Origin: Ohtaekwangia koreensis
Lineage (GTDB): Bacteria > Bacteroidota > Bacteroidia > Cytophagales > Cyclobacteriaceae
Direction of reading: 5' to 3'
DNA: 64,000 nt
NCBI RefSeq assembly: GCF_900167975.1
Contig: NZ_FUZU01000003.1
Coordinates: 620,001-684,000, forward strand
The notes below the pieces were generated by a model that was given only the letters and a program-made list of their open reading frames with translations, had not been told where the DNA came from and ran no database searches. The position numbers and the translations under genes are program-made. How positions within the stretch are numbered: position 1 is the first letter of the stretch; each line of letters starts with the position of its first letter. Positions 5,381 to 39,228 of this stretch are shown piece by piece.

Positions 5381-7141
5381 TTATTTCACTACAACTTGGC
5401 TGAGACGATTCTTCATTGATAAAGAATTGCCAGTATTAAATTGATTTTTAAACAGTTCAAAAAAATATCCTTTTCTCGCGATCAAGTCCTCGAGTGAGCC
5501 TTGTTCAACGATTCTTCCATTTTCAAGATATATAATTTCGTCAGCAAACCCAAGAGCGCTAAGGCGGTGTGTAATCGTAATGAGTGTACTTATTTTACAG
5601 GTATCGATCAGAAATCGATATATACTTTCCTCACTGGCAGCGTCAATTTCCGAGGTTGCCTCGTCGAGTACGAGCAAATCCGGATGGCGGACGGCTGAGC
5701 GCGCAATTGCAATTTTTTGTTTTTGTCCTCCACTTAGCTGCGATCCTCTTTCTCCAAAGGAGCGCACCGATAGGTCAGTACCCGCCTCATCCTGCAGCCG
5801 TATCTGCTGAAGTATATCTGTTAAATTTTCTATGCTAGAGTTATCATTACCATAGGAGAAATTCTCCTGTAACGTACCATTGATGATAAAGTATTCCTGT
5901 GAGCAAATGCTATAGGAGTTCATCCATTGCATCATCGGTATATCTTTTAAGTCCTGTCCATCAACAAAGATACTTCCCCGTTTAGGTTCGATAATTTTAC
6001 TCATTAAGTCTGCCAGCGTTGTTTTCCCACTACCACTGGTGCCCACAAGCGCATAATGTTTACCGGCTTTAAAAGTAAAATTAAAGTCCTGCAATATCGG
6101 TTTATCGGCGTGCGCAAAACTGATATTACGAAACTCGACTGCATTAAATGGTTTAGAAAACATGGTTAACTCACCTTCCAGGTTTTGCTGCGGAGGTTCA
6201 TCAAAGAGTTCAAAGAGTCGTTTGATAGAAACCGAAGTTTTTACAAGGTCTACATATAGGTTAACGACATTGCGCAAAGGCTCATGCAGTTTATTGGCAT
6301 ATTGCAGAAAGGCTATAAGTGTACCCACGGTCATGGCATCCTGTAGTACAAGCTTTCCCCCGTAGGCCAGCACTACGAGTGGAATGAGGGCGAGTAGAAA
6401 AACAGACAACCCGTTTGAAGCGGATGACAAGACTGTTGAATGAAGGTTGAGTTTCACGATTTCAGAGATTCTGGAATCCATTGTTTGATTTTCCGAACGA
6501 TAGCCGTTAAACAACTTTATGAACTTAATATTGGAAAATCGCTCGGTCAAGAAAGCCATCAAATCAGATTCTTCGCGTCGGGTTTTTTCCACAACGCGTT
6601 TGATGGAAGGTGAAAACAATTTCATCACCATCAAAAGAAGCGGGTACAATATCGATACCACCAGAAACAATTTCATATCGAGCACAATCATCAACACGAT
6701 TAAAGCAATGATGGTAATGATGTTATTAATCATGCTGATCACCGTACCCGTGAATGCTCTGCGTACCTGTCCCACTTCATTGTTTATTTTATAAACGATG
6801 GTGCCCACACTCTGGCTGCGAAAAAACTGAATCGGTAATTTTAGCATGTGAGCAAATAAACTTGTTGTCAGGGTAACGGTAATTTTATTACTGATCCAGG
6901 TATATAGGTAGTCTGCCAAAAAGCCTGCTATAATGCGGAGTATATAAATCGCTGTCAACGTAAAGATTATGTTGAGCAGCAGATCGTAATTGCGCTCGCC
7001 AAAAACTTTGTCGATAATAATTTTTAAAAAAAATGGTGTTACAAGCGATCCTAAATTTCCAATGAGTAGTAAAACCAGAAGCAGCAATCCATATCCTTGA
7101 TAAGGTTTAAAAAATCCATAAAACCGCAACCATATACGCAT
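5381..7141 (-). CDS. ABC exporter, fused membrane and ATPase domains (peptide type)
   Basis: A 586-residue half-transporter. Residues 1-310 hold about six membrane helices of the ABC type-I exporter fold. The C-terminal ATPase has Walker A GTSGSGKTT (367-375), signature LSGGQ (469-473), Walker B LLVLDEA (488-494) and the switch His in ITITHRL. There is no N-terminal C39 peptidase domain, so this exporter does not itself cut a leader; proteases elsewhere in the cluster would have to. It is the last gene of the minus-strand peptide cluster, 12 bases after the JmjC-type gene. In that setting it is the likely exporter, and perhaps the self-protection pump, for the modified peptide. No membrane-fusion partner is adjacent. 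A lipid or drug flippase role cannot be excluded by sequence alone. Confidence 0.9.
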   Translation of the reverse strand: MRIWLRFYGFFKPYQGYGLLLLVLLLIGNLGSLVTPFFLKIIIDKVFGERNYDLLLNIIFTLTAIYILRIIAGFLADYLYTWISNKITVTLTTSLFAHMLKLPIQFFRSQSVGTIVYKINNEVGQVRRAFTGTVISMINNIITIIALIVLMIVLDMKLFLVVSILYPLLLMVMKLFSPSIKRVVEKTRREESDLMAFLTERFSNIKFIKLFNGYRSENQTMDSRISEIVKLNLHSTVLSSASNGLSVFLLALIPLVVLAYGGKLVLQDAMTVGTLIAFLQYANKLHEPLRNVVNLYVDLVKTSVSIKRLFELFDEPPQQNLEGELTMFSKPFNAVEFRNISFAHADKPILQDFNFTFKAGKHYALVGTSGSGKTTLADLMSKIIEPKRGSIFVDGQDLKDIPMMQWMNSYSICSQEYFIINGTLQENFSYGNDNSSIENLTDILQQIRLQDEAGTDLSVRSFGERGSQLSGGQKQKIAIARSAVRHPDLLVLDEATSEIDAASEESIYRFLIDTCKISTLITITHRLSALGFADEIIYLENGRIVEQGSLEDLIARKGYFFELFKNQFNTGNSLSMKNRLSQVVVK

Positions 7142-7153
7142 CGCTATATTTAT

Positions 7154-7987
7154 TTAATTCCAGACAACGTCCTGGTAGGCATCTCGGATGGCAACCATTT
7201 TATGATAGGCGTTCCACATATTCTGACGGGCAAAGGATTGGAGGACGCGCTGGTAATTCTCGTGATTGATAAAATTCTCGGACAACGCTATACAAGGCTT
7301 TAGTAACAACACGGCATGCCATATACCACCGGGGCAGTATACGAGCTCGCCAGGCCGCTGTATATATATCAACGGAGCAGCCTTGCGAAAAAGTGGAAAA
7401 GCATCCCAATCGGGAGTAAAAGGGTTAACGCGACCCTGGTATAAAAAAGGCTCATCAGAATTCAAGAAGAAAACCCAAAGCTTTTCTCCTTCAAAGAGAG
7501 CATTCCAAAAACTTGTTCCCCATATATCAACGTGCAGCGGGCTGAGCGCATGCGCAGGGCCTAAGTATAAATTTGACAGATTTATTTTCCGTTCTTCCTG
7601 CGCATGCTCCTGGTACCACCGACGATACCAGCATGGGAAATACTGATCCACCGGATACTCCGATCGCATATCCGTGGCCAAATGCAGCGAAGTTTTAGCA
7701 TAGTATGGATTAGGCTCATCACACTCCCGCATATATTTTATATAGTTCTTAAGGGAGGTCCTTATAAATTTAGACTGGCCATCTTCCATACGATCGGCCA
7801 GGATCATATGATCACCATGGCGGTCTTCAAAAAAATGTGTATTCCATTTGGGATATGCCGGCCATTGTTCCATGATGGAAGTAAACACCACCGGGGCTTT
7901 ATTCAACTGATCCCGTGAGAACGTGGACGTATGCTCCAGTGAATCAAACATCGCATAACAATCCAGCAGGTGCTTATAAGGTTTCAT
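7154..7987 (-). CDS. JmjC/cupin_8-type Fe(II)/2-oxoglutarate oxygenase
   Basis: A 277-residue protein with the facial iron triad of JmjC hydroxylases: His152 and Asp154 in SPLHVDIWGTSF and His224 in CPGGIWHAV. The segment EGEKLWVFF after the first ligand pair and RPGELVYCPGG before the last are typical of the cupin_8/JMJD6-FIH-like group. Such enzymes hydroxylate side chains of proteins or peptides using 2-oxoglutarate and oxygen. It differs in type from the three cupin_4-like paralogues at the other end of the cluster, so it probably acts on another residue. Its first 14 bases overlap the end of the carrier-like gene, which suggests coupled translation. The substrate is inferred to be the cluster's precursor peptide. 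Confidence 0.85.
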   Translation of the reverse strand: MKPYKHLLDCYAMFDSLEHTSTFSRDQLNKAPVVFTSIMEQWPAYPKWNTHFFEDRHGDHMILADRMEDGQSKFIRTSLKNYIKYMRECDEPNPYYAKTSLHLATDMRSEYPVDQYFPCWYRRWYQEHAQEERKINLSNLYLGPAHALSPLHVDIWGTSFWNALFEGEKLWVFFLNSDEPFLYQGRVNPFTPDWDAFPLFRKAAPLIYIQRPGELVYCPGGIWHAVLLLKPCIALSENFINHENYQRVLQSFARQNMWNAYHKMVAIRDAYQDVVWN

Positions 7988-8246
7988 AAGCGTATTTGTT
8001 GATCACACGAATCATGTGATTGAGATCCGAAAAGAAAAAATAGTCTACTTCACAATCGGGTATATCAATGCGATAACGACTTTCAATAAAATTTACCCAG
8101 CCGATGGCTGTATCTTCCTTTTGTACAAAGAAAGACAGCAGGTTAAGTTCGAGCAACGAGTCGGTAAATTTGGTATCAATCAGAAGATGGCTCCGCAAGG
8201 CGAGTAGCGCATCTGATTTCTCAAGGGGTACTGCTGGTATACTCAT
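7974..8246 (-). CDS. Acyl-carrier-protein-like protein lacking the phosphopantetheine serine
   Basis: A 90-residue acidic protein. The C-terminal half (VNFIESRYRIDIPD, then a final helix MIRVINKY) fits helices II-III of acyl carrier proteins, where LEExFxxEIPD is conserved. When aligned on that block, the position of the Asp-Ser-Leu attachment site reads Lys-Glu-Asp, so the serine that carries phosphopantetheine is absent. Either this is a non-acylated carrier-fold scaffold or the likeness is only structural. It sits between the FtsX permease gene (5 bases away) and the JmjC gene (14-base overlap), in the same cluster as an acyltransferase. The family call is my own alignment by eye and is moderately uncertain. 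Confidence 0.5.
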   Translation of the reverse strand: MSIPAVPLEKSDALLALRSHLLIDTKFTDSLLELNLLSFFVQKEDTAIGWVNFIESRYRIDIPDCEVDYFFFSDLNHMIRVINKYAYETL

Positions 8247-8250
8247 GACA

Positions 8251-10584
8251 CTATTTTTCTTTTAACGTTACAACCGGGTCGATATAGTTTACACGTATAG
8301 CGTGAAAGAGAATCGTGGCAAAGGCAACCAGGATCAGTAAGAAAACCGGGGCCATAAATTCAAGCCACGAAATCATATGACGATACGAAAATTTCATCAT
8401 CCACGCTTCCAACAGGTAATACGCTACAGGTATAGCAAGTACGATCGCCAGTAGAATGAGCTTTGAAAAATCGCCGACCAAAAGGGCCAGCAACCGGGAG
8501 AAGTTTGCGCCAAAGACTTTACGAATGGACAACTCGCGTGTCCTGCGCTCGACGGTAAAATTTGCAAGCCCGAACAATCCCAAAGCGGCAATAACAATGG
8601 AAAGGAAAGAAAACAACGTTGATATCTTTCCCATGTTTGTTTCATTCTGATACAACCTGTCCAGGGTGCTGTCAAAAGCATAGTAAGAGAATATCTCCGA
8701 AGGGTTATTGGCTATATGAATTTCTTGCAAGGCGTGAAGCGCATCCTGATAATGGTCGGGTTGTACACGCATAATTATATACTCCGCTTCTTTTGGCATA
8801 ATGGCAACAACCAGTGGCTGTATGGGGGTAAACAAGGAGTTGAAATGAAAATCCTTCACCACGCCGATCACTTCACCTTCCCCACCCCACACTTGAATAG
8901 GCTGGTGAAGTATATTATCTCCCATGATTTTGCGGGCGCTCTCATTTATAAAAATTGGAACACCGGCATTGCTGGCAGCTTTCTTTGCAAAGCCTTCAAC
9001 CTTCTGAATCTTTAGAACGTCAACAAAATCCTCGTCAACAAAAATTACCCCGAAGCTGGTACTGTCATGAGCTGGTTTGTCAGGCCATACAATACCGCCA
9101 ACCATTGGGCTACCCGCAAATAAGTTATCACTGCAGAATGTTACGCCTTCTATGGATGATTGCTGTTTTAATTTTTGTTTCATCACATCAAGCTTCTCCA
9201 GATCGGCTTGCGTCAACTCTTTAACGAGTATATTTTTCTTCTCATAGCCCAGGTCTTTCTCCTTCAGATACGATACTTGATTGATGACACCGGTAGTAAA
9301 GACAATCAGCAGTATGGATAAAAAGAACTGAAAGCAAAATAATGTTTTGCGCATGAGGTTCCCTCCTATCTTCACGTTCTGGTTAACGTTTAGCATACTG
9401 ATTACTTTAAACGAGGTAAGTATATAAGCGGGGTATATCCCGGATATACCACCGGTCAGTAGTATTATTCCTATGACCGTGATCCAAAATACAGGCGAGG
9501 TATAGGGCAGGCTAATGTTTTCTGAAAGCGCGGTGTTAATATAGGGCAACGTTACTGCCAGCATGACGATCGCGATACACCCGGAAATCACGGTAATGGA
9601 AAATGACTCGATTAAAAATTGCCAGATGAGTGAAGTCCGTTCCGCGCCGATGACACGTTTGGTACCAATCTCTTTGGTTCGCTTAAAGGCACCGGCCGTA
9701 TAGAGGTTCATGAAATTTATACAGGCCATCAGCAGGATAAGCAAGGATGCACCTATAAACAGGTGTACATATTCAATCCTACCACCGTTAACTTTTCCAT
9801 CAAGCAAGTCAGAATATAGATATATATCATCGAAGGGCTGCAGGAGTACGGTGGCTGCCGTCATTTTTTTTAGTTGTCCATTAATGTGATTGGCCACAGT
9901 TTCCGCTTGCGCGGGGTCTGACAAGGCAATATAGGCCTCATAATTATAGATGCCAATGTGCTCCTGATAATCTTCGGTTAATAACAAGCCGAAATCAAAC
10001 TGAATGGTGGAGTTGGTGGGAAAGTCCTCGTATACCCCGGTGATATCAAATTCATTGCGACCGTCGAGAACAATAGTATTGGTTGAAATTTTATTCCTCC
10101 ATTCTGAACCTAATAACGTATTGGCCATCGATTCAGAGATCACCATGGAGAGTTGATCGGGTAGTGCTTTCTTGGCATCACCATATAAAAAACGCCTGCT
10201 GATCAGGTTGAAAAAATTACTGCTGATTCCCTTACCTTCAAACTCAAGGCGCTTGTCATTGGATTCTACGACGTGTTTATTCTCCCGTGTTTCGACGAAC
10301 ACTAATTCCTTTATACCTGCCTGACCTTGCTGCAGCGTTTGAATGATTCTAAAGGATGTAGCCCGCGCAGACTGGGTTTTCTCGTTTAACGGATAATTGG
10401 TGATGACTTGAAAAACTCCCTGACTTTCCGGTATAAAGTTATTGAAGGTCAACTCCTTTTCAATCCACAAGAGCAACAGTATGCAAGACGCCAGTCCACT
10501 CGAGAGTCCGATCACATTGATAAAAACACTCGCCTTATTTTTTCTAAACGATCGCAAGGCAGACTTGATATAATATATAAGCAT
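8251..10584 (-). CDS. FtsX/MacB-type ABC transporter permease
   Basis: A 777-residue membrane protein of the large permease family common in Bacteroidota. It has two halves, each with a membrane helix, a periplasmic MacB_PCD-like domain and an FtsX three-helix core. The FtsX core signatures are visible: KRTKEIGTKRVIGA after the first core and ERRTRELSIRKVFGA near the C-terminus. Such permeases work with a separate LolD/MacB-like ATPase to move or extract lipoproteins, peptides or drugs across the envelope; no ATPase gene is adjacent. It ends 4 bases before the carrier-like gene and lies inside the peptide cluster, so resistance to or export of the product is a reasonable inference. Confidence 0.9.
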   Translation of the reverse strand: MLIYYIKSALRSFRKNKASVFINVIGLSSGLASCILLLLWIEKELTFNNFIPESQGVFQVITNYPLNEKTQSARATSFRIIQTLQQGQAGIKELVFVETRENKHVVESNDKRLEFEGKGISSNFFNLISRRFLYGDAKKALPDQLSMVISESMANTLLGSEWRNKISTNTIVLDGRNEFDITGVYEDFPTNSTIQFDFGLLLTEDYQEHIGIYNYEAYIALSDPAQAETVANHINGQLKKMTAATVLLQPFDDIYLYSDLLDGKVNGGRIEYVHLFIGASLLILLMACINFMNLYTAGAFKRTKEIGTKRVIGAERTSLIWQFLIESFSITVISGCIAIVMLAVTLPYINTALSENISLPYTSPVFWITVIGIILLTGGISGIYPAYILTSFKVISMLNVNQNVKIGGNLMRKTLFCFQFFLSILLIVFTTGVINQVSYLKEKDLGYEKKNILVKELTQADLEKLDVMKQKLKQQSSIEGVTFCSDNLFAGSPMVGGIVWPDKPAHDSTSFGVIFVDEDFVDVLKIQKVEGFAKKAASNAGVPIFINESARKIMGDNILHQPIQVWGGEGEVIGVVKDFHFNSLFTPIQPLVVAIMPKEAEYIIMRVQPDHYQDALHALQEIHIANNPSEIFSYYAFDSTLDRLYQNETNMGKISTLFSFLSIVIAALGLFGLANFTVERRTRELSIRKVFGANFSRLLALLVGDFSKLILLAIVLAIPVAYYLLEAWMMKFSYRHMISWLEFMAPVFLLILVAFATILFHAIRVNYIDPVVTLKEK

Positions 10585-10651
10585 AGTATAGGATTTCGTA
10601 TAGGCAAAAAATACTAACTATATTTCACTAAATAAAAAGAAAACAAAATTT

Positions 10652-11767
10652 TTATGTTGGCTCAAGTATACTCGGTGTTGCAACAACAGACGCCCCATCA
10701 AGAAGCGTTTGGATATACGGGTCCGTGGTTTCAATTCGTTTGCCATGAGCACGGAAGAAATCGATCAACTGGTAACCAAAATAAGTATTGATCAGGTTTG
10801 TATTGGAAAAGAAATTGCCCACGATCAAAACGTCGATGAACTCCAACATTTTCGGCGATACTATACCGGGTATTACTTTCTTTCCGCTCTTGCGCACCAA
10901 GGCTCCATACGCATCGATTGGATCCATCGGATAATTCATGACCATGGCTACACGCGGATCTTCAAAGTAAGGCTGTATACATTCATCATCCACAGCAAAC
11001 AACATCCATCGTTTATCTGCAATATATTCTGGCAAAGGTTTTCGGTCGCTTTGCATATCGGCCGCTAACGGGTAATGGGTTGAGCGTCCGGGAACACTAT
11101 AGCGCTGTAATAAGTTGGCAACCGGTATATGGCGACTTTGTATATCCTGCTGGTATATATAGGCCAGTCTGCCACTGAGTGCAGCTGCTGCATAGCTGGT
11201 GCCGGAGCGGATGGCAGGTTTACCGGACTCGCCCTGTATACGCTGATGTATACCTTTTGCCAGCACGTTGATATAGCCTTCACCCACATAGCAGAAGTCC
11301 TGCATCCGTCTAAATATACCCGTTCCCACTCCGATCACCGTTGGGAAGGCTGCCGGATAGCATGGATAGCTTGTCTCATGGTGCGCCGCAGCAATGACAA
11401 CCTGGCCATTATGATAACACTTCATGCATGCTTGTCTAAGAATTTCAGGTGGTGATGAGCGGACAATACCCAGGCTGATGTTGATGATGTGAACATCCTT
11501 CCGTTGTGCGCAATATTCCAGTGCCCGGCAAAGAAGGTCAACGGTGATTTTCTCAGTGTCGAGCCTGATGGAAATAATCCTGCTGGCGGGTGCCAGGTAA
11601 TGAATGATACTGGCAACATTGGTGCCGTGATAGAGCATAGACTTGCTTTCGCCCGCTTTGCCAGCCTCTCTTGGGAGGGTTACCTCTTCTGCCGCTGCAG
11701 AAGAGGTAAGGCGGTGATAAGAGAAGTCCACGCCCTGATCAATAATAGCCACACCGATTTCTTCCAT
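10652..11767 (-). CDS. Subtilisin-like (S8) protease, cytoplasmic, with extra C-terminal domain
   Basis: 371 residues from ATG 11767. A TTG six bases upstream is also in frame and would overlap the preceding TGA. The catalytic set is present: Asp10 in AIIDQGVD, His47 in YHGTNVASI and Ser191 in IRSGTSYAAAALSG. No signal peptide is seen, so it should act in the cytoplasm, as RiPP leader proteases of this type do. The usual oxyanion-hole Asn of AAGN is replaced: the segment reads AAAHHETSYP. After about residue 235 a ~135-residue C-terminal part with no family I recognise follows (KRWMLFAVDDE, then VLIVGNFF). It is placed between an unknown cluster protein and the FtsX permease. Likely job, by context: cleaving the leader of the two precursor peptides. 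Confidence 0.85.
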   Translation of the reverse strand: MEEIGVAIIDQGVDFSYHRLTSSAAAEEVTLPREAGKAGESKSMLYHGTNVASIIHYLAPASRIISIRLDTEKITVDLLCRALEYCAQRKDVHIINISLGIVRSSPPEILRQACMKCYHNGQVVIAAAHHETSYPCYPAAFPTVIGVGTGIFRRMQDFCYVGEGYINVLAKGIHQRIQGESGKPAIRSGTSYAAAALSGRLAYIYQQDIQSRHIPVANLLQRYSVPGRSTHYPLAADMQSDRKPLPEYIADKRWMLFAVDDECIQPYFEDPRVAMVMNYPMDPIDAYGALVRKSGKKVIPGIVSPKMLEFIDVLIVGNFFSNTNLINTYFGYQLIDFFRAHGKRIETTDPYIQTLLDGASVVATPSILEPT

Positions 11768-11769
11768 GC

Positions 11770-12624
11770 TCAATTTTTTAAGTAGGCAAAGTTTTCTTCC
11801 GGGTGATATACCGCGTCGATGAGTCCGAGCAGATCCAGGAATTTTTTATAGTTCGTACTTCCTTGTGAAACAAAGACATTACCCGTATGGCGCGCGCTAT
11901 AGGGATGCATCGTCGAGGGTATATCTTCTGTTGAAAATGGCGCGATCAAACTTTCGATGAGCTCATGTATAACCGGGTTTTTCACACTGTTAATAATCCC
12001 TGGCAGCAGTATAAATTTCAGAATTGCATATTTATCCCTGCGGTCCTGGTGGGTAACAATAAGGAACGAGCTGTTCACGGTCATTTCCTTGATATAATAA
12101 TGCAGGGATGGACGTTGCAGGGCACTGGTGAAATGATGCTGAAAAAAACTATATAAATCTGTTTCGGCCACCAGTATATTAATTTGAAAAAAAGCCTTTG
12201 TCACAAACGGCACCTGCAAAAAGGATACAAGTAGTTCGCGTTCGGCTTTCAAACGCTCATATACCGGGTATCCAATTGCACGAAGGCGCTCAAATATAGA
12301 AGCTGCATAGCGATAGGTATCAAATGTACCGCCTTCGTTATAGTAGTCTTGCCATTGCTTGACCAGCAGGCTCAGCTCGCTGACTACCTGCTGATCATCG
12401 CATGAATCTTTTAGGGTATCAACAGTTCGTTTGCAAAATCTTCCCAGGTTCAGGTTAGCTTGATTTAAGGGTAAAAAATTCTTTCTGTTTTGTTCACCTG
12501 CTCTAGAAAAATCATGCATACGGTTATAAAAGTAGCACTGCTTATGCTGCTCGGTAACCACATCGTGATAGAGGTTGCCAAAGCTTGGAATGTCCTGCAC
12601 AAAGGATTTAAATGTACCAATCAT
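11770..12624 (-). CDS. Unknown cluster protein between radical SAM enzyme and subtilase
   Basis: 284 residues from ATG 12624 (a TTG six bases upstream is the alternative). I do not recognise the family. It looks soluble and largely helical, has no signal peptide or clear membrane segment, and shows aromatic-rich stretches such as DLYSFFQHHF and SLHYYIKEM. There is a charged segment RAGEQNRKNFLP near residue 45 and a possible conserved end (MHPYSARHTGNVFVSQG). It starts 12 bases after the radical SAM stop, and its TGA lies 2 bases before the subtilase ATG, so the three are almost certainly co-translated. It may be a partner protein or a peptide-modifying enzyme of a new family. Confidence 0.8.
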   Translation of the reverse strand: MIGTFKSFVQDIPSFGNLYHDVVTEQHKQCYFYNRMHDFSRAGEQNRKNFLPLNQANLNLGRFCKRTVDTLKDSCDDQQVVSELSLLVKQWQDYYNEGGTFDTYRYAASIFERLRAIGYPVYERLKAERELLVSFLQVPFVTKAFFQINILVAETDLYSFFQHHFTSALQRPSLHYYIKEMTVNSSFLIVTHQDRRDKYAILKFILLPGIINSVKNPVIHELIESLIAPFSTEDIPSTMHPYSARHTGNVFVSQGSTNYKKFLDLLGLIDAVYHPEENFAYLKN

Positions 12625-12636
12625 ACCCAAAGATTT

Positions 12637-16068: not shown

Positions 16069-16099
16069 GTTGACAGGATTTGAAAAATCAAACCATGTA

Positions 16100-17023: not shown

Positions 17024-17054
17024 ACAAAGCAGTAAAGTTCGATATACAGGTAAA

Positions 17055-18128: not shown

Positions 18129-18182
18129 AGATTTTGGGTTTAGCGATAAAATAAACGATTACCTAAATTGAGTGTTACCAGT

Positions 18183-18222: not shown

Positions 18223-18224
18223 GA

Positions 18225-19727
18225 TTAGTCGCGGACGTTCAAATATAGGGCACGGGCAGTCGCGGTATTACTACTCCACTCTCCTACACGAATATCCCGC
18301 CGGTACCCTGTCCCTATAGCTTTGCTAAAGTATAAATCCTTCGACTTGTTGTCTGCGCTGACCGCATCTACAAGCCGGAGCGTAACAAGTATATCTTGGG
18401 TGACAACGATTTTATACGATTCTAAATTTATTCGCTGCCATCCTTCCTTCTTGCCGATTCGAAACTCAACAGGCGCCGCAATCAAATTAGCAGGGGCTCC
18501 TGCATCATCGAGTTGATATATACACAGCTTGAAGAGCAAGCTGTCGAAGGTGTTGAATCGAAGGTGAAAATTGAAATCGACCAATGAGTACTCTTTGTCA
18601 ACATGTATGACTGTGCCGGATTCATCACTGGATTCGGACAACAGACCGGAAGCGCCTTCAGTACTTTTTATGGCTTTGGTCAGTCCGATAGCCTTTTGAT
18701 GCCCGGAGGTTTTATAGACTGCTGAATAATCCGTGAACGTGCTGCTTTCAGAGACCATAGGCTTTGCAGCGGTATTCGCAGTGAGTGTTGCATGGGATGG
18801 TGAGGCGCTGCGGCGATGTACCAAGACGCGGTTGTTGGTAAGTGCTTCAATCTGGCTGGCAGCGATCACAATGGCAGGCGCACGTTCTCCCTCCTGTTTA
18901 GTCCAGTCACTCTCGAAGGCACCCCTGTATAAACTGATACCCGGTTTATTGGGCATTCTTGAAAACGTAAGCATCCCTCCCTTCGTATCCTTACCATAAG
19001 CCTTAACCCATTCCAGGGTGATGCAAAAATCTTGCGCTACATCAATCCGATAAGGCCGCACATCGATGTCCACCCAACCTGAATGTTTGTCGACTGTAAA
19101 GAGCACATTGGAAGACAATAGTTCCTCTGTTGGATCATCATTGCTATTGAGTGCATATATATGCAGGCGCATCAGTACGCTATCATACGTGTTCTTTTCA
19201 ACATGTATGGAAATAGTGTTCAACAATATCTCACTGTCTACATCCACTAGCAGTCCCAGTTGTTTACCTTTCCCAGCATTCTCCTCCCCGCCCCAGCCAT
19301 TAAATCCTTTGAATTTATTCTTGTCTTTTTTTCCGAATTCAACCAGCGCCATCTGGTCTGTTATCTCGACAGACCGCAATACCTTGGCCTTTGGCTGAAG
19401 TGTAAAAACGCTACCATCCTTTTGCTTGAACTCTTTTCCCCTGAAAATAAGAGGTTCATATCCCAGGAAAGTTATTACCACGCTATCGCTATCGGCCAGG
19501 GAGGAAACGTTCAACTCGAACATGCCATCACGGTTGCTTACCTCGCCAATATTTTTTCCGATCACACCGATACTGGAAAACTCCAGCGGCTCCCGGGTAT
19601 CAGCATCAATAATTTTGCCTCTCTGCGACTGTCCTAGTACGGGCGAGGAGAGCAAGCATATAGCGGCCACCAGCATTTTTGCTGCACACATCACTTGATT
19701 TTCACGAAGCCTTCTCATCGGTATCAT
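18225..19727 (-). CDS. Secreted CarboxypepD_reg-like protein with duplicated C-terminal domain
   Basis: 500 residues with a signal peptide ending in SSPVLGQ. The mature protein starts with a carboxypeptidase-regulatory-like (CarbopepD_reg_2) domain, RGKIIDADTREPLEFSS to SVVITFLGYEPL. Two related ~150-residue beta-rich units follow. Their match can be seen in NTYDSVLMRLHIYAL against NTFDSLLFKLCIYQL, and in SGWVDIDVRPYRI against EGWQRINLESYKI. No TonB-dependent barrel follows, so it is a stand-alone surface or periplasmic protein. It is 18 bases from the lipocalin-like gene upstream. Possible roles are binding the exported product or protecting the envelope; nothing in the sequence decides this. 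Confidence 0.8.
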   Translation of the reverse strand: MIPMRRLRENQVMCAAKMLVAAICLLSSPVLGQSQRGKIIDADTREPLEFSSIGVIGKNIGEVSNRDGMFELNVSSLADSDSVVITFLGYEPLIFRGKEFKQKDGSVFTLQPKAKVLRSVEITDQMALVEFGKKDKNKFKGFNGWGGEENAGKGKQLGLLVDVDSEILLNTISIHVEKNTYDSVLMRLHIYALNSNDDPTEELLSSNVLFTVDKHSGWVDIDVRPYRIDVAQDFCITLEWVKAYGKDTKGGMLTFSRMPNKPGISLYRGAFESDWTKQEGERAPAIVIAASQIEALTNNRVLVHRRSASPSHATLTANTAAKPMVSESSTFTDYSAVYKTSGHQKAIGLTKAIKSTEGASGLLSESSDESGTVIHVDKEYSLVDFNFHLRFNTFDSLLFKLCIYQLDDAGAPANLIAAPVEFRIGKKEGWQRINLESYKIVVTQDILVTLRLVDAVSADNKSKDLYFSKAIGTGYRRDIRVGEWSSNTATARALYLNVRD

Positions 19728-19745
19728 TTATATACTTGCTTATAC

Positions 19746-20120
19746 TTATTTGCCGGATACCTTTTTCCCTTTCAGTTTATACAAAAACTTGTCACCCTTC
19801 ACTTCTATCGTTGCCAGTACAGAATCACCTTTAAAGGAGCAGTTAAAAATAGAATTAGTCTCCTCTACGTTAGATGAAAATACCAGGCGATTGCCTTTAA
19901 CCCGCAGCACATCCAAGGTATACTGTTTGCCAGCCTTGTTCACTACTTTACCGTTATAGGTTTCACCACTTTTGTTCAAGATGATCGTCCCATAGAAATT
20001 TCCATACGGCGTATCAGTAACAGAATACATCCAAGAACCTGAGAAATCGTTTTGGCCTTGTCCATAGGAAATGGCAGTCGAAAGAAGCGAAATACAAATG
20101 ATAAACAATGTTTTTTTCAT
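19746..20120 (-). CDS. Small secreted lipocalin-like protein
   Basis: 124 residues from ATG 20120, where the signal peptide begins (MKKTLFIICISLLSTAISYG); an in-frame extension to 20186 would run through the upstream hairpin. The mature part is a run of beta strands beginning FSGSWMYSVTDTPYG, which resembles the first strands of lipocalin or extracellular-lipid-binding domains. No enzyme motif is visible. It is the first gene after the precursor peptides, separated from them by a 12-bp-stem hairpin. Precursor-adjacent small secreted proteins may give self-protection or bind the product; that is inference. Confidence 0.75.
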   Translation of the reverse strand: MKKTLFIICISLLSTAISYGQGQNDFSGSWMYSVTDTPYGNFYGTIILNKSGETYNGKVVNKAGKQYTLDVLRVKGNRLVFSSNVEETNSIFNCSFKGDSVLATIEVKGDKFLYKLKGKKVSGK

Positions 20121-20134
20121 AACGTTAACTTTTA

Positions 20135-20162
20135 AATACCGGCATGACTTCATGCCGGTATT
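20135..20162 (-). promoter_or_regulatory. Hairpin after the precursor genes (attenuator or weak terminator)
   Basis: Perfect 12-bp stem, AATACCGGCATG at 20135-20146 with CATGCCGGTATT at 20151-20162, and a four-base loop. On the minus strand it lies between the last precursor and the downstream genes and is followed by TTTAAAAGTT, a poor U-run. It is well placed to let precursor mRNA outnumber enzyme mRNA. Confidence 0.75.
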
Positions 20163-20216
20163 AAGATAGTAAATTATTTCAGGCAAGTGTATACCTACCC
20201 GAAATATCAGATACCT

Positions 20217-20426
20217 TTAAAATAAAACGTCGTCGTTGTCACCGGTCGATGAGAAACCGGCACCATCAGCAGGCTCTGTTTCAGAGTTGCAACCTCTGGG
20301 ACGTTTATCAAAATTACTGCAGAGTGATTCTAGCTCTTCCAGAGAAACATCTTTTCCCTCCAGGGTCTTTTTGCTTCGTGTTGAAGGTTCTAGGATTTGC
20401 TTGGGAAATTTTTCATTCTTTTCCAT
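20217..20426 (-). CDS. RiPP precursor peptide 1
   Basis: 69 residues, no signal peptide. A charged leader (EKNEKFPKQILEPS, then VSLEELESLC) is followed by a C-terminal block of 31 residues, 39-69, that is identical in the second precursor. The block starts FDKRPRGC, continues through NSETEPADG and ends TGDNDDVLF. It has one cysteine, two arginines, several Ser/Thr/Asp/Asn and a hydrophobic tail. I base the precursor call on small size, tandem copies, a shared leader pattern (LEPS, KT, VSLE, LESLC) and position amid modifying enzymes. The Arg residues are candidate substrates for the arginase-like enzyme, and Asp, Asn or other side chains for the JmjC enzymes. The true core boundary is unknown. 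Confidence 0.8.
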   Translation of the reverse strand: MEKNEKFPKQILEPSTRSKKTLEGKDVSLEELESLCSNFDKRPRGCNSETEPADGAGFSSTGDNDDVLF

Positions 20427-20499
20427 AAAGTGAACTTTAATAAGGTGGTTTGAAAATTAATGATGTGCCCGTATACCGGGCTTGTTAGAGAAAAGTACT

Positions 20500-20712
20500 T
20501 TAGAAGAGGACGTCATCATTGTCCCCTGTGGAGCTGAAGCCAGCTCCATCTGCCGGTTCAGTCTCGGAATTACACCCGCGTGGTCGCTTGTCGAACTCTG
20601 TACACAGTGATTCGAGTTGCTCCAAGGAAACTTCGACCCCGTCAATAGTTTTGGGGGCTTTGTTCGAGGGCTCCAAGAGCTGCTTGGTCTTGGAGGCTTC
20701 TTTGTTTTTCAT
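20500..20712 (-). CDS. RiPP precursor peptide 2
   Basis: 70 residues from ATG 20712. The leader (KTKQLLEPSNKAPKT, then VSLEQLESLCTE) is related to but clearly different from that of precursor 1; residues 40-70 are identical to its C-terminal block. Glu39 directly precedes this block, and a Glu-specific protease is encoded nearby. Comparing the two genes codon by codon over the 31 shared residues, 27 codons differ yet none changes an amino acid, so these are old duplicates under strong constraint rather than a recent copy. A small stem (GCCCG at 20467-20471, CGGGC at 20477-20481) lies between the two precursor genes. Confidence 0.8.
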   Translation of the reverse strand: MKNKEASKTKQLLEPSNKAPKTIDGVEVSLEQLESLCTEFDKRPRGCNSETEPADGAGFSSTGDNDDVLF

Positions 20713-20760
20713 GTTTGTTCTAGTTTAAGTAAAACATTTATTTATACTATAACAGCGCTA

Positions 20761-21708
20761 TTATAGTCTTTCAGAGTTTACCAAATCGTGTTTCGTAAAT
20801 TGGAAGGTTGCCCGGACAGGCGACCGCTCAGCATCTGCCGGTTTGATCTTGGCGAGAACATCCAATGGTAAGTTGTGTGTGAATTTTTGTTTGAGGCATT
20901 CGATGATTTTTTTGCGGGCCTCGCCCTGGCACAATATATCTTTCATATAGGCTCCTCGTAACAGCGGTTCTTCTTCCGCGAGCTGCCGAATGTACGCCGC
21001 GACAACGGAAAGCCACGTGGTATGCATGCATCCCAGTGTGATGTGGGCAGACATGCTATCGGTAGTGATCACCTCGTGAACGAACCCGCGAGGAAAGTAT
21101 ACTATATCTCCAGCTTCTATATCCAGATCGTAGAGAAGGTTCAGCTTCGAAAAGTCGAACACCCGGCCACCTTGCGGTTGCGTGGGAAGATACAATGCGC
21201 TCTCGTAAATACGCCAGCGTTTTTTTCCAGCGATCTGAATAATAAACAGATCATGCTCGTCAAAATGTGCTGGGAAACATTGGGCTTGCGCAGGAGTAAT
21301 AAAAATATTGGCCCCCGAGGTAGTCTTCAGATCATTATTGATTGTTTCCAAAAGACGCTCCAGTGCAGGCCACTCATACTGACTGGCGTTAATGAGAATG
21401 GTGGCTTTTTCCTGCATATAGAGTTGTTCCATCTTGGAAACATTAAAGCCCTTTCGAATAACCACATTTTTTGAGTGCTGTGAGTTCAGATACTCTGCGG
21501 CAGGAATTTTCTTCTGCGCGTTGGGCATGGTTATCTCCACACGTCCGGATATACTCCCGCGCTCAAGCACAACATCGATATCCTCCAGGCTCATAAGCCT
21601 GTTGAAGTAATGCGGATCGTTTCGTTTTACAACAAGAGGTTTCTTTTCCAGGTACTCTTCTACAAAAGTCTCCTTTGACACAGGGTGTATCAACCATTCT
21701 AAATTCAT
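20761..21708 (-). CDS. JmjC/cupin_4-type oxygenase, active-site intact (copy C)
   Basis: 315 residues. The pattern PAHFDEHDLFIIQIAGKKRW gives iron ligands His148 and Asp150, and FPRGFVHE gives His211. These match the ribosomal-oxygenase group (YcfD/MINA53/NO66 type, cupin_4), which hydroxylates Arg or His side chains in proteins with Fe(II) and 2-oxoglutarate. The usual ~100-residue N-terminal part and the C-terminal helical region after residue 225 are present. It is the third of three tandem paralogues, 39 bases after the degenerate copy and just upstream of the precursors. The likely substrate is a precursor peptide. Because known relatives hydroxylate arginine, it could act on the same KRPR block as the arginase-like enzyme. 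Confidence 0.88.
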   Translation of the reverse strand: MNLEWLIHPVSKETFVEEYLEKKPLVVKRNDPHYFNRLMSLEDIDVVLERGSISGRVEITMPNAQKKIPAAEYLNSQHSKNVVIRKGFNVSKMEQLYMQEKATILINASQYEWPALERLLETINNDLKTTSGANIFITPAQAQCFPAHFDEHDLFIIQIAGKKRWRIYESALYLPTQPQGGRVFDFSKLNLLYDLDIEAGDIVYFPRGFVHEVITTDSMSAHITLGCMHTTWLSVVAAYIRQLAEEEPLLRGAYMKDILCQGEARKKIIECLKQKFTHNLPLDVLAKIKPADAERSPVRATFQFTKHDLVNSERL

Positions 21709-21747
21709 AATATCTGGTCTTTATTTTCGATATATATATAGCTCCTT

Positions 21748-22683
21748 CTATAGGGATTCTCCTAGCCGATGAGCCAGTGTTATGCGTGACTGTCGCGCAA
21801 TAACTTTTCGCAGTGGATACGCTTCCAGCTTTATAACCTGCTCGCACAATTGCTCAGCCAACTGCTCGGACTTCAGTTGCAGGCTTTTCTCGCCCCGCAT
21901 GTGAGCCTGATAAAATCCTTCGCGCAAAACGTCAATTTCCTGCGCCCACACTTGCAATGCACTGGCGATCACCTTTGCCCAGGTCGTGTTGAATACATCC
22001 ATCACAATTTGCGCTGCGGGTTGTTCGGCGCCCCCTGTTTCCAGAATGAAGCCCCTAGGTACATAGAGAAAATCTCCCGTTTCCAGAACTGCGTCCAACA
22101 GCAATTCACTGCTATCCCGCAGAAAGGGCTTACCCGCCTGGGATGCCATTGGCTGGTGGACGAGCGGGCCATAAACTTTAACGGGTACCCTGCCGTTGGT
22201 CTGAAGTATAAAACGGTCAAATACCTCATAGGCTGGCGCAAAACTTTCTCCTCCCGCGGGCATGATGCGAAGTCTGCTCTCGCAAACGCATTGCAGTATG
22301 TTGCTGACGTCTACAGAAAGATCGTTTGTCCAATTCATAAAACGATCCAGGTTCTCTACTACGATGGTTGCTTTCTTTTGATGAAATAATCTTTCAATCT
22401 CAGGCAGCTTAACTCCATTGCGAATGATGACATTTCCCGTGTGACTATAGTCTATATATTGATCTTCTCCCAGTTTGTTGGTGGGATGTATCAACCGGAT
22501 GGATAGCAATGGAGAATCATAGAAATCGGTTAATAGCGAGGAGACGGTCATATCATCTATATAACCGCTATAATACTGCTCATCCTCCCGTGCAATATGA
22601 AGCGGAAATACATCAAAATAATGGTGATAGAAGTCTTCGGGCACTATCGGGTGCAATAGACTTGCCAGATCCAGGTGCTTCAT
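21748..22683 (-). CDS. Degenerate JmjC/cupin_4 paralogue without iron ligands (copy B)
   Basis: 311 residues, aligned along its length with the two flanking paralogues (VIIRNGVKLPEIERLF, KKATIVVENLDRFMNW, ETGDFLYVPRGF). At the ligand positions it reads AYE where the others have HFD or HYD, and RGFILE where they have RGFVHE. All three iron-binding residues (here Ala151, Glu153, Leu214) are therefore changed. It should not be an oxygenase. The reading frame is fully open and its gene is spaced like its neighbours, so it is a kept protein, not a pseudogene. JmjC cupin_4 enzymes often dimerise, so a structural or substrate-binding partner role for copies A and C is plausible. Confidence 0.8.
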   Translation of the reverse strand: MKHLDLASLLHPIVPEDFYHHYFDVFPLHIAREDEQYYSGYIDDMTVSSLLTDFYDSPLLSIRLIHPTNKLGEDQYIDYSHTGNVIIRNGVKLPEIERLFHQKKATIVVENLDRFMNWTNDLSVDVSNILQCVCESRLRIMPAGGESFAPAYEVFDRFILQTNGRVPVKVYGPLVHQPMASQAGKPFLRDSSELLLDAVLETGDFLYVPRGFILETGGAEQPAAQIVMDVFNTTWAKVIASALQVWAQEIDVLREGFYQAHMRGEKSLQLKSEQLAEQLCEQVIKLEAYPLRKVIARQSRITLAHRLGESL

Positions 22684-22781
22684 GGGTATATAGCTATAAT
22701 GTTGTAACTCAATTGAATTTCAAAAACGTGGTCTGCGTGCGGGCAACCATTCCGATTGCGTGTTACATAAAAATCAAAAGA

Positions 22782-23747
22782 TCATTTTGAACTTTCGACA
22801 GCAACTGGGTGCTGTCCTGCAATAGTCTTAAACGAAAGGCTTCCGTTTTTATTAGGCCTATACTTGTTACTTAACAAAGAAATATTTTCAAGGGTAAGCG
22901 CCTGATTGATCTCCTGCCTGATGGCGTTGAGAATCTCCTCCTTGTCTACATTTCCTTTATAGCCATCGGCAAAGAATCCGCTTCGAAACACCTCGCGTTG
23001 TCCGGCCAGTTTAGTAATGCTATCCAAAATCAGTCGGGTCCATGTGGTTCCATAAATACCCAGGGTGATATGGGCTGAGATTTCCTGATTAGTCATGGCT
23101 TCGTGGACGAAGCCCCGGGGCATGTAGATCAGGTCTCCGGCTTGCAAATCCAGTTCGACCGAAGGCACAGCTTGTTCTCCGCTATACGGTATACTGGGCT
23201 GGCTCCCCAATGGCAGATATACCGGATTCTCATATATCTTCCAACGTTTACTTCCGTGAACTTGCAGGATAAAAACATCATGGGTATCATAGTGTGCTTC
23301 AAACCCCTGCGATTCGGCCGGAGATATATAGATGTTTGCCCCGGAAGAGCAACTCATACTTTCATTAACGGCATCAGACAACCGGGCAATAGACGGCCAC
23401 ACGTTGGAAATCTGTTCAATAATAATAGTGGCCCCATGCTTGGTAAACAACTCCAGTACCTTTGCCGTGTTCAAGTGCGATTTGACTTCGACATTTTGCA
23501 CGCGGCTCATACTGGCATATTGTTTTTCAAATATCACTTTATCCGCTGCCGCCATACGCACGTCATAACTACCGAGCGCATGCATCCGACTGACGATAAA
23601 ATCAATATCATCCAGGGTAAGTATGTCTTGAAAGTACCGGGTATCGCCACGCCTAATCACCAGGGGTTTTCGCTCCAGATAATTCTGAAAAAAATCTGTA
23701 ACGTGGAATGGCCGTAACAGCCATGAGAAGTCCAGCTTTTCATTCAT
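22782..23747 (-). CDS. JmjC/cupin_4-type oxygenase, active-site intact (copy A)
   Basis: 321 residues. Iron ligands His152 and Asp154 lie in EAHYDTHDVFILQVHGSKRW, and His215 in MPRGFVHEA. N-terminal features shared with copies B and C include FSWLLRPFHVTDFFQNYLERKP and the DIDFIVSR helix. It is predicted to be an Fe(II)/2-oxoglutarate side-chain hydroxylase of the ribosomal-oxygenase type. It is the first gene of the minus-strand cluster and begins 201 bases from the divergent S9D protease gene. Copies A and C keep their catalytic residues but differ widely elsewhere, which suggests different target residues in the precursor. Confidence 0.88.
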   Translation of the reverse strand: MNEKLDFSWLLRPFHVTDFFQNYLERKPLVIRRGDTRYFQDILTLDDIDFIVSRMHALGSYDVRMAAADKVIFEKQYASMSRVQNVEVKSHLNTAKVLELFTKHGATIIIEQISNVWPSIARLSDAVNESMSCSSGANIYISPAESQGFEAHYDTHDVFILQVHGSKRWKIYENPVYLPLGSQPSIPYSGEQAVPSVELDLQAGDLIYMPRGFVHEAMTNQEISAHITLGIYGTTWTRLILDSITKLAGQREVFRSGFFADGYKGNVDKEEILNAIRQEINQALTLENISLLSNKYRPNKNGSLSFKTIAGQHPVAVESSK

Positions 23748-23948
23748 AGGAAAAGGTTTAACGATGGAACACTATATACGTTCAAACACCGGAAGTATAT
23801 CAACGAAAGGATTAGGATATATTTACCCTATTACTATATATATATAAACTATATCTGCCGGGGAGTAACGTGGATATGGACATGAATATAGTAAAAAAAC
23901 AACGCGTGCAAATATTTATATTTAAAAAAAATATAACTGGATATACCT
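23748..23948. promoter_or_regulatory. Divergent control region of the peptide cluster and S9D protease
   Basis: 201 bases between two diverging ATG starts. It is rich in TATA words, with an alternating TATATATATATAA stretch near 23835-23848, and has no gene. Promoters for the cluster and for the protease must lie here or be internal. I could not place a confident Bacteroidota -33/-7 pair. Confidence 0.5.
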
Positions 23949-26279
23949 ATGGCGTATCAGAAACCTTCGCCGGTGCTATCGGAATTATACGAAAGTTCAG
24001 TGAGCCGGAAATACCTACTCTCTCCAGACAAACAATGGCTTGTAATACTGGCGTGCTCTACCTATATATCCATTGACGACATGACGGGCCCTGAATTAAC
24101 ACTGGCCGGGTTGAGTATTAACCCCGACAATTTTTCAAAAAGCCGGCAGCAGGTGTTTACTTGGTTTGCCATAAGGCACATGGAAAGCCTGGAGGAATTT
24201 CAAATTGCTTCGCTTCCGCAAGCACTAAAAGCAAACAATATAGCATTCTCGCCGGATAGCAAACGGTTGGCCTTTCAGCATACAACCCCGGTACAGGTAC
24301 AACTTTGGATCGTGGATCTTCAAACCATGACCGCCAGTCTCCTATCGCTGCACCCGGTGCATACTATACTGACATCGGGCTATGCGTGGCTCAACAATAC
24401 ACACCTGCTCGTGCTGACTCCCGCCCTGCCCGATTCGGTTAACACCACAGCACCAGTGGCCAATGCAGAACCGACTATCTTCGATACAGACCATGGCAAA
24501 AAATCTAACAGCAGGACTTTTCCGAATCTGTTACGAAACCGACATGAGGAATCACTCTTTGAATTTTATACAATGTCTCAAATGATGGTATACTCGCTCG
24601 ATGGGCCTGCGCGCAAACTCGGCGCGCAGGCTACATATGCCTCCTATGCAATCTCGCCCGATGCCAGGTATATTCTCATGCGAAAAATTATACGCCCCTA
24701 TTCTCACAGTGTTCCGCATGGGTTGTTTCCCCAACAGGTAAGTATATTTCACATTGACTCTGACCAGGAAGAACCAGTCCATACCTTACCACTACAGGAG
24801 ACGGAGTCTTCTAATTTCAGTGCTGTCTCTCCCTTTCCACGCCACCATCACTGGCGCGGCAATCGAGCGGCCACACTCTGCTGGGTGGAAGCCCAGGATG
24901 ATGGCGAGCCCGGCCGGGATGTAGCGATCCGCGACGCCTTGTTCGAACGGGATGCGAGCGGTGGCACTACGCGGTGTATTTGCAATCTACCCTTGCGATA
25001 TGGCCAGGTATACTGGGGGGATTCACCTTACGCGTTTATATATGAGTGGTGGTGGGAGAACCGAAAAATGAATATTTATACTTTGACAACGGAGGCGGGT
25101 CGAATTACAAAACAATTACTGCTGGAGCGTTCGTTCGAAGATCCGGTATCGGATCCCGGTAAACCAATGACATTTCCAAAGCAATTTGGAACGCCCATAC
25201 TCTACACACATGATCGTGAATATATATACTTGACCGGTGAGCGGGTCCTGCCCATGGAGAAAGTGAAGATCAGTTTTTTAAACAAGCTTTCCTTACGCGA
25301 TGGCTCCATTCAAACGCTCTGGACAAGTCGTGAAAATTTTCATGAACAGGTTATCACAATGCTGGATGCTGAGCGGGAAATCATTCTTATCTCACGCGAA
25401 TCCCCGACGCACTATCCGAACCTGGTTGAAGTGAATTTACAAAGCAAGCATGAACGATACCTCACCAAGTTTCCCAATCCTTTCAGAGCATTTGAATCCA
25501 TTCGAAAAGAGCGCTTGCATTACCGGCGACAAGACGGAATATCCTTGTTGGCAGATATCTACCTGCCGGCAGGATTTCAAGTGGGTGATGCGCCGTTGCC
25601 TTGCCTGGTATGGGCCTATCCTCAGGATTTCAAAGACAAACGAAATGCTGAGCATGCTCAGTCTTCGACCAATACATTTCCACGGGTAAGCTGGGATAGC
25701 CTTCGTCCCTGGGTGCTGAAAGGATATGCTGTACTGGAGCGCATCCCCTTCCCCATTGTTGACACCGAGTCGGGCCCTGCCAACGATACCTTCATTGAAC
25801 AATTGATTATGAACGCGGAGGCTGTGTTAGCCACCGCGGCTGCGGCTGGCTTGATCGATATGAACCGGGTAGCCATTGGCGGCCACAGCTATGGAGCCTT
25901 CATGGTGGCCAACCTGATGACTCACTCGACACTCTTTAAACGAGGCATCGCTCGCAGCGGTGCCTACAATCGCACCCTCACACCGTTTGGATTCCAAAAT
26001 GAGGAGCGAACTCTCTGGCAGGCGGACCACGTTTATCACCGCATCTCACCCTTCAACTATGCACACCTCTTGAAGGGACCGCTTCTTCTGTTGCACGGCG
26101 CTTGTGATGACAATCCGGGGACCGCGCCGCTTCAGAGCGAGCGTTACTTTCACGCCATCAAGAGTAATGGAGGAACGGCCCGGCTGGTGCTATTTCCCTA
26201 TGAGAAGCATACATACCAGGCAAAGGAAAGCATCCTTCACATGGTTTACGAAATGGAAAAATTTCTTGAGGACCTATAG
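23949..26279 (+). CDS. S9D-type prolyl-oligopeptidase-family glutamyl endopeptidase
   Basis: 776 residues. The beginning (QKPSPVLSELYESSVS, then GPELTLAGLSINPDNFSKSR) follows the N-terminus of chloroplast-type glutamyl endopeptidases. The C-terminal alpha/beta hydrolase has Ser647 in GGHSYGAF, Asp720 or 721 in LLHGACDDNPGT and His754 in PYEKHTYQA. The stretch ARSGAYNRTLTPFGFQNEERTLW is nearly diagnostic for the S9D group, which cuts after Glu in peptides. No signal peptide is present, so it should be cytoplasmic. It is divergent from the RiPP cluster. The precursors are Glu-rich, and precursor 2 has Glu39 at the edge of the conserved block, so leader trimming or clearance of failed peptides is a fair inference. 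Confidence 0.85.
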   Translation: MAYQKPSPVLSELYESSVSRKYLLSPDKQWLVILACSTYISIDDMTGPELTLAGLSINPDNFSKSRQQVFTWFAIRHMESLEEFQIASLPQALKANNIAFSPDSKRLAFQHTTPVQVQLWIVDLQTMTASLLSLHPVHTILTSGYAWLNNTHLLVLTPALPDSVNTTAPVANAEPTIFDTDHGKKSNSRTFPNLLRNRHEESLFEFYTMSQMMVYSLDGPARKLGAQATYASYAISPDARYILMRKIIRPYSHSVPHGLFPQQVSIFHIDSDQEEPVHTLPLQETESSNFSAVSPFPRHHHWRGNRAATLCWVEAQDDGEPGRDVAIRDALFERDASGGTTRCICNLPLRYGQVYWGDSPYAFIYEWWWENRKMNIYTLTTEAGRITKQLLLERSFEDPVSDPGKPMTFPKQFGTPILYTHDREYIYLTGERVLPMEKVKISFLNKLSLRDGSIQTLWTSRENFHEQVITMLDAEREIILISRESPTHYPNLVEVNLQSKHERYLTKFPNPFRAFESIRKERLHYRRQDGISLLADIYLPAGFQVGDAPLPCLVWAYPQDFKDKRNAEHAQSSTNTFPRVSWDSLRPWVLKGYAVLERIPFPIVDTESGPANDTFIEQLIMNAEAVLATAAAAGLIDMNRVAIGGHSYGAFMVANLMTHSTLFKRGIARSGAYNRTLTPFGFQNEERTLWQADHVYHRISPFNYAHLLKGPLLLLHGACDDNPGTAPLQSERYFHAIKSNGGTARLVLFPYEKHTYQAKESILHMVYEMEKFLEDL

Positions 26280-39219: not shown

Positions 39220-39228
39220 TTAATTTAT

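Follow-up and report, generated by a model that had tools for sequence, protein, structure and literature searches.

The flm/ohk family and related peptide pathways

The 'DD(I/V)LF' family of ribosomally synthesised and post-translationally modified peptides (RiPPs), with its flm and ohk systems, was described by Pfeiffer et al. in 2025 (PMC12703449) and is represented by NCBIfam models NF052472-NF052474. In the ohk system two arginines in each precursor are hydrolysed to ornithine by OhkR, an Mn peptide arginase: Arg45 and then Arg43 in OhkA1, and Arg44 and then Arg42 in OhkA2. The conversion was demonstrated both in E. coli and in vitro, and OhkR works in C-to-N order (PMC12703449). The main text of that report characterises the arginase step alone and does not resolve the product or the other steps, and its conclusion leaves undecided both the assignment of DD(I/V)LF to core or follower and the matter of modification by other maturases. 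The present analysis concerns a gene cluster at positions 5381-26279 of a 64,000-nucleotide stretch of DNA (the window), which we firmly infer from its sequence to be the ohk cluster of Ohtaekwangia koreensis, or that of a strain identical here. The RiPP pathway is real and conserved, and the cluster is the one to which a published family refers; its tailoring is still new to test, above all a possible LPLAT-type acylation and a possible Cys cross-link. We consider it quite probable that the ohk identity and the arginase step hold jointly with one or both of two further steps (a SPASM-enzyme link at Cys37 and the acylation).

Parts of the pathway resemble other described systems. Biphenomycin and pbs pathways also employ a UPF0489 arginase, whose freshly made ornithine is then the substrate of a JmjC or cupin-like hydroxylase, together with a radical S-adenosylmethionine (SAM) cross-link (PMC12707348, PMC12257519). 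PapB ranthipeptides likewise pair a SPASM enzyme with CX3D in the precursor (PMC9413430). QhpD/E/F, the maturation system of quinohemoprotein amine dehydrogenase, has the same set of a SPASM enzyme that makes thioethers, a subtilase and an ABC exporter, but its substrate is an enzyme subunit (PMC7876137). Selidamides, finally, would have fatty acylation of ornithine in common with the ohk product if the acylation considered below is right (PMC12703449).

Identity of the cluster

Products of the open reading frames (ORFs) were scanned with Pfam and NCBIfam profiles, predicted folds were searched against the PDB, and relatives were sought with BLAST, membership of an NCBIfam family being judged by each model's own cut-off. 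By this measure the two precursors are FlmA (NF052472, cut-off 30; 50.4 bits for OhkA1 and 41.3 bits for OhkA2), the SPASM enzyme is FlmE/OhkG (NF052473, cut-off 500; 772.8 bits), and the UPF0489 protein is FlmR/OhkR (NF052474, cut-off 350; 407.9 bits). Published accounts give OhkA1 70 residues, core arginines 43 and 45 and D66-F70; OhkA2 69 residues, Arg17, Arg42, Arg44 and D65-F69; precursor helices that start at L30/L29 and reach about K42/K41; and, for OhkR, a metal site of H15, D42, H44, D46, D167 and D169 with a dimer region at Pro177-Pro233 (PMC12703449). Every published position and length of the three proteins that was compared agrees with the window (8/8 positions for OhkR), and no difference was found between the precursors, arginase and SPASM enzyme of the window and those of the ohk cluster itself (PMC12703449). 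An earlier note on this DNA had proposed a RiPP cluster in which a UPF0489 peptide arginase makes ornithine, and both proposals are borne out by the NCBIfam families over cut-off and by the published work (PMC12703449). Its suggestion that no described family had this set was wrong, since precursors, arginase and SPASM enzyme all exceed the cut-offs of a published family (DD(I/V)LF, FlmA/OhkA) modelled in NCBIfam, and the published residues agree.

The arginase displays three published peptide arginase (pfam12640) motifs, DEHSD (DXHXD), EEHHEAF (EEH(N/H)EAF) and LDIDLDYFSC, and matches the OspR structure 8brp at 2.5e-67. As others have shown, it converts two core Arg residues per precursor to ornithine (PMC12703449). 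Its published numbering agrees with a start at MMRDK inside ORF 16100-17128, giving 307 aa. As called, the arginase ORF overlaps that of the acyltransferase (17055-18128) by 74 bases, an overlap that would vanish with the MMRDK start.

Organisation and relatives of the cluster

Eighteen features form one unit, which opens with the ABC exporter at 5381 and closes at 26279 with the S9 peptidase, the divergent member. They are given below with percent identities to two related clusters, one in a genome of the same family and another genus (G615) and a more divergent one (G1542).

5381..7141, minus strand: ABC exporter, membrane and ATPase domains (PF00664, PF00005; G615 54%, G1542 35%)
7154..7987, minus strand: JmjC/Cupin_8 protein with HxD...H ligands (PF13621 1.7e-18, PF02373; G615 54%, G1542 36%)
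7974..8246, minus strand: 90-aa protein resembling acyl carrier protein (ACP) (weak PDB fold matches; carrier Ser replaced by Glu)
8251..10584, minus strand: FtsX/MacB-type permease (PF02687, PF12704; matches in G615 and G1542)
10652..11773, minus strand: subtilase, nearest NCBIfam model QhpE (PF00082 6.5e-11; NF049966 101.3 bits, cut-off 165)
11770..12630, minus strand: 286-aa protein, no family match (kept in G615, none found in the G1542 cluster)
12637..14097, minus strand: radical SAM/SPASM maturase FlmE/OhkG, CNMGCPYC motif (NF052473 772.8 bits; G615 70%, G1542 43%)
14158..16146, minus strand: S41-family peptidase (PF03572 1.1e-15; matches in G615 and G1542)
16100..17128, minus strand: peptide arginase OhkR, UPF0489 (NF052474 407.9 bits; OspR 8brp 2.5e-67)
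17055..18128, minus strand: LPLAT-fold acyltransferase-like protein, C-terminal domain of unproven kinship (fold matches PatA, LpxM, PlsC; homologues)
18225..19727, minus strand: CarboxypepD_reg-like protein (PF13715; G615 40%)
19746..20186, minus strand: 146-aa protein, N-terminus resembling a signal peptide by eye (kept in G615)
20217..20426, minus strand: precursor OhkA2, 69 aa, with Arg17, Arg42, Arg44 (NF052472 41.3 bits)
20500..20712, minus strand: precursor OhkA1, 70 aa, with Arg43, Arg45 and CX3D at 37-41 (NF052472 50.4 bits)
20761..21708, minus strand: JmjC_2 protein, HxD...H kept (PF08007 3.9e-24)
21748..22683, minus strand: JmjC_2 paralogue without iron ligands (PF08007 2.8e-11)
22782..23747, minus strand: JmjC_2 protein, HxD...H kept (PF08007 2.8e-28)
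23949..26279, plus strand: S9-family peptidase, divergent (PF00326 1.2e-19; G615 40%, same orientation)

The gene list of the earlier note stands overall, its ORFs being present and their families backed by profiles or fold, with corrections to one JmjC protein that lacks iron ligands, to the ACP-like protein that lacks the carrier Ser, and to a PqqD-like end that finds no support. Three members of the unit are additional to it, namely the 286-aa protein (11770-12630), the CarboxypepD_reg protein (18225-19727) and the 146-aa protein (19746-20186). The first of these has no Pfam or NCBIfam family and no PDB fold match at E<=0.001 (model mean pLDDT 56.0).

All 18 features recur in G615 in the same order and orientation, which is more than chance, with pair identities of about 40-70% except for the ligand-less JmjC protein at about 23%; ATG-only starts gave a partial subtilase there, its full frame being seen otherwise. 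Beyond its ends, the three window genes at 1863, 26281 and 27207 found no counterpart in 39 kb of G615, so that the boundaries at 5381-26279 look natural. The G1542 cluster combines eight shared genes with four precursors ending EDILF and other tailoring genes. BLAST identities there are 43% for the SPASM enzyme, 42% for the arginase, 36% for the 7154 JmjC protein, 35% for the ABC exporter, 27% for the subtilase, 26% for FtsX, 25% for S41 and 30% over 40 aa for the ACP-like protein. The SPASM enzyme (637.8 bits) and arginase (358.3 bits) of this cluster pass their cut-offs, and the one precursor scored reaches 25.1, below 30. BLAST found no match in it for the LPLAT, 286-aa, three tandem JmjC, CarboxypepD_reg, 146-aa and S9 proteins; it has instead two other JmjC/cupin proteins, a 2-oxoglutarate (2OG)-Fe(II) oxygenase, a methyltransferase and an AraC-type regulator, and, in place of the LPLAT gene of the window cluster, a stand-alone condensation domain of nonribosomal peptide synthetase (NRPS) type (L054:6821-8206; PF00668, 2.3e-54). 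The earlier note had made its reading depend on co-occurrence in relatives, and the genes do stand together in G615 and, for eight of them plus precursors, in G1542.

The cluster is rare in sampled genomes. At E<=1e-60, NF052473 matched 2/390 genomes of the order, 1/395 of the class and 3/196 of the family, as well as 1/7 in the genus itself, 1/5 in that of G615 and 1/1 in that of G1542; these samples overlap, and the O. koreensis genome is counted among the matches in its own order, class, family and genus. In a large family, by our guess Flavobacteriaceae, the count was 0/397, with no match at all, which is not proof of absence. NF052474 matched 13/395 genomes of the phylum at E<=1e-3, the O. 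koreensis genome alone lying over the cut-off. The published Flagellimonas flm cluster was not found in the genomes searched, and the likeness to FlmA is that to the family model NF052472. Among genome contigs OhkR matched 14 loci, none titled Bacteroidota; the viral contigs searched gave no match, and plasmid records held SPASM relatives in 94 cases, all under 60% identity, and no relatives of the arginase or acyltransferase.

Precursors and the SPASM enzyme

The two tandem precursors (70 and 69 aa, minus strand) have the common C-terminus CNSETEPADGAGFSSTGDNDDVLF, and both end DDVLF; the ORFs and NF052472 thus uphold the earlier description of two such peptides. A degenerate DNA pattern for K-R/K-P-R-G-C matched the 7.24-Mb genome in the OhkA1 and OhkA2 genes only, with 0 matches for its reversed control. 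Genome-wide, a DD[I/V/M]LF-stop pattern was also confined to these two genes, although this count is weak because the reversed control has 2 matches as well. CX3D is present in 8/8 precursors from three genomes, each with exactly two Cys, the eight representing three clusters only, of which two are close relatives. The alignment does not vary at M1, P15, C37, D41, S61, D67, L69 and F70.

By analogy with PapB, whose bond within CX3D runs from Cys to the Asp beta carbon (PMC9413430), the SPASM enzyme may link Cys37, with Asp41 as the simplest partner in a CX3D thioether, a step to which we give slightly less than even weight. On the published helix L30-K42, C37 and D41 would face the same side. 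CX3D in all eight precursors, the cost of C37A in the family model and a PapB model hit of 104 bits speak for this chemistry. Several results weigh against it. When OhkA1 variants were scored against NF052472 (wild type 50.4 bits), C37A cost 9.7 bits, L36A 6.4, E34A 5.7 and C47A 4.0, whereas changes at position 41 had effects of -2.1 (D41A), +0.8 (D41N), -1.5 (D41E) and -1.3 bits (D41K); by this model Cys37 is a family hallmark and Asp41 is not. The enzyme falls outside the PapB family NF047865 (104.2 bits, cut-off 340), and PapB is not its nearest model, four others scoring higher (TIGR04463 209.6, Clo7bot 184.6, CefB 137.5 and geopeptide 106.3 bits). PapA carries six links, and the precursors here have one CX3D (PMC9413430).

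Two alternative explanations bear on these peptides. According to one, the genes have no connection beyond their proximity and the small ORFs encode no precursors, to which the reversed control of the DD[I/V/M]LF-stop pattern, matching as often as the pattern itself, might lend some colour; with all 18 features in unchanged order in G615 and three flanking genes unmatched there, and with precursors and arginase already expressed and active, which contradicts it outright (PMC12703449), we regard this as exceedingly improbable. The other alternative retains the pathway but has the SPASM enzyme make a different change, whether a bond from Cys37 or Cys47 elsewhere, an alpha-carbon thioether, a carbon-carbon link or epimerisation. 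We know of no proven chemistry for TIGR04463, Clo7bot or CefB, the models nearest to this enzyme, and this, together with the latitude of NF052472 at Asp41 and the second Cys in all eight precursors, argues for such a change; CX3D in the same eight, with both C37 and D41 invariant, argues for the thioether, and we consider the alternative evenly poised between right and wrong.

A candidate peptide acyltransferase

The acyltransferase-like protein (17055-18128) has no Pfam match, but all 16 PDB matches of its predicted fold at E<=0.001 are PatA, LpxM or PlsC, and its homologue L063 matches PF03279 at 1e-11. Matches at E<=1e-5 were found in 6/196 genomes of the family, the O. koreensis genome included. 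Further homologue neighbourhoods were read in three genomes (G737, G1563 and G1526, leaving out G049 with E 1e-5), and two of the three hold RiPP maturases. In G737 (C30; L063:7168-15956, L066:160-11601) the homologue lies with aromatic ammonia-lyase, ketosynthases, ACP, phosphopantetheinyl transferase (PPTase), AMP ligase and UDPGT, and beside proteins related to the ATP-grasp and SPASM members of the grasp-with-spasm pair (TIGR04192 193 bits and TIGR04193 132 bits, both below cut-off) and an M50 peptidase; from its gene content this locus looks like an aryl polyene-RiPP hybrid cluster. The G1563 homologue (C55; L061:1271-10484, L067:1575-2657) accompanies AMP ligase, PPTase, FabA-like and ketosynthase genes, and nearby are a dehydratase of lanthipeptide type (PF04738 1.7e-128) and a protein with a weak likeness to LanC (8.3e-7). 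The LPLAT fold and the two homologues beside RiPP maturases favour a lipidated product. The earlier idea of possible fatty acylation thus gains the predicted fold and the neighbourhood context, and acylation remains a candidate step. The LPLAT-fold enzyme would transfer a fatty acyl chain to a peptide amine, for which ornithine is a natural acceptor; we are evenly divided on this step.

On the most far-reaching reading, the product would be a lipidated, Cys-cross-linked RiPP with (hydroxy)ornithine, its LPLAT enzyme belonging to a general Bacteroidota group of RiPP acyltransferases common to lanthipeptide-type and grasp-with-spasm-type clusters with their own acyl-carrier machinery, a picture that we consider possible but less likely than not. 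The fold model was built from two sequences and has a mean pLDDT of 50.9. The LPLAT dyad is HX4(D/E), and in four aligned LPLAT proteins the His is kept while the usual acid is N, N, R and N. In G1526 the homologue gene is cut by the contig end, with S9 and FtsX-type neighbours only and no RiPP maturase before that end, and the G1542 cluster gave no BLAST match to the LPLAT protein. All of this speaks against lipidation, and part of it feeds the possible, though less than probable, alternative that the product contains ornithine and a cross-link but is never lipidated, the LPLAT-like protein being non-catalytic or acting on a lipid or export partner. Such a role would suit the replaced catalytic acid, the lack of the carrier Ser in the 90-aa protein, the absence of the LPLAT gene from G1542, and the absence of any dedicated ketosynthase, ligase or PPTase among the families found by profile scans of the window cluster. 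However, the altered acid recurs, with the His kept, in homologues beside acyl-carrier machinery; LPLAT homologues adjoin RiPP maturases; and G1542 has a stand-alone condensation domain and a Ser-bearing ACP-like protein instead.

Nostolysamides are reportedly lipidated RiPPs. The selidamide acyltransferase is GNAT-type, and no GNAT family appears among the Pfam matches of the scanned cluster proteins; here the fold is LPLAT and the precursor FlmA-type, unlike selidamides. Lipidated RiPPs are thus already known, as with selidamides (PMC12703449), and among the open-access titles listed none deals with an LPLAT-type RiPP acyltransferase. If the acyltransferase reading is true, the enzymes that attach lipids to ribosomal peptides gain a member with a lipid A-type acyltransferase fold, and a single group of enzymes connects several RiPP types of these bacteria, giving a direct route to new lipopeptides. 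The ohk pathway, partly solved, is easy to test, the strain being in a culture collection and the precursors and arginase having already been expressed in E. coli.

The PqqD-like C-terminus that had been ascribed to the acyltransferase finds no profile signal. In an hhalign search for a PqqD-type RiPP recognition element (RRE), four C-termini aligned with SPASM N-termini at 2.0, under all five column-shuffled controls (8.3-13.4). In this region the fold model, of low confidence, shows three strands and two helices.

Proposed hydroxylation, proteolysis and export

By alignment, 3/4 JmjC proteins keep HxD...H, and the JmjC_2 paralogue at 21748-22683, which sits between two ligand-bearing paralogues, does not. 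In the same place G615 also has a ligand-less protein, about 23% identical, and from its sequence the paralogue is probably a pseudoenzyme; of the four JmjC proteins previously listed, three thus keep iron ligands and one looks catalytically dead. Only the 7154-7987 protein among the JmjC proteins of the window has a BLAST match in all three clusters (window, G615 and G1542). BipG, a JmjC protein of biphenomycin pathways, hydroxylates ornithine (PMC12707348), and cupin-like PbsQ hydroxylates ornithine made by the arginase PbsE (PMC12257519). The 7154-7987 protein is a candidate ornithine hydroxylase because of this analogy with enzymes acting after arginases. It may hydroxylate ornithine as BipG does, the tandem JmjC proteins hydroxylating further residues with the ligand-less paralogue as a helper, a scheme that could go either way; hydroxylation, as proposed earlier, is plausible from the three ligand-bearing proteins and the BipG analogy.

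The ACP-like label of the 90-aa protein holds as a likeness: 15/20 weak PDB matches (E 0.066 to 3.5 over the 20) are named ACP or peptidyl carrier protein (PCP), and three more, NDUAB1 twice and SDAP1, are presumably mitochondrial ACPs. The carrier Ser, by alignment, is Glu in the window, Asp in G615 and Ser in G1542, where the homologue matches PP-binding at 0.073.

Qhp maturation combines cross-linking by the SPASM enzyme with removal of the leader by QhpE, which precedes export through QhpF (PMC7876137). QhpE is also the best NCBIfam match of the window subtilase, which is probably, by this analogy, the leader protease. Its score lies below the family cut-off (NF049966, 101.3 against 165 bits), which counts against this role, and the likeness of the subtilase and export set to Qhp serves as a working analogy, not membership. 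Like QhpE, the subtilase may cleave the leader intracellularly, with the FtsX and ABC systems exporting and the S41 and S9 peptidases trimming, a scenario for which we see the balance as about level.

Genes beyond the cluster

Elsewhere in the window, a long ORF at 31605-34289 (894 aa) appears by eye to encode a surface subtilase followed by repeats. Positions 37879-43410 hold ordinary RND efflux genes, for an outer membrane efflux protein and an AcrB-type pump.

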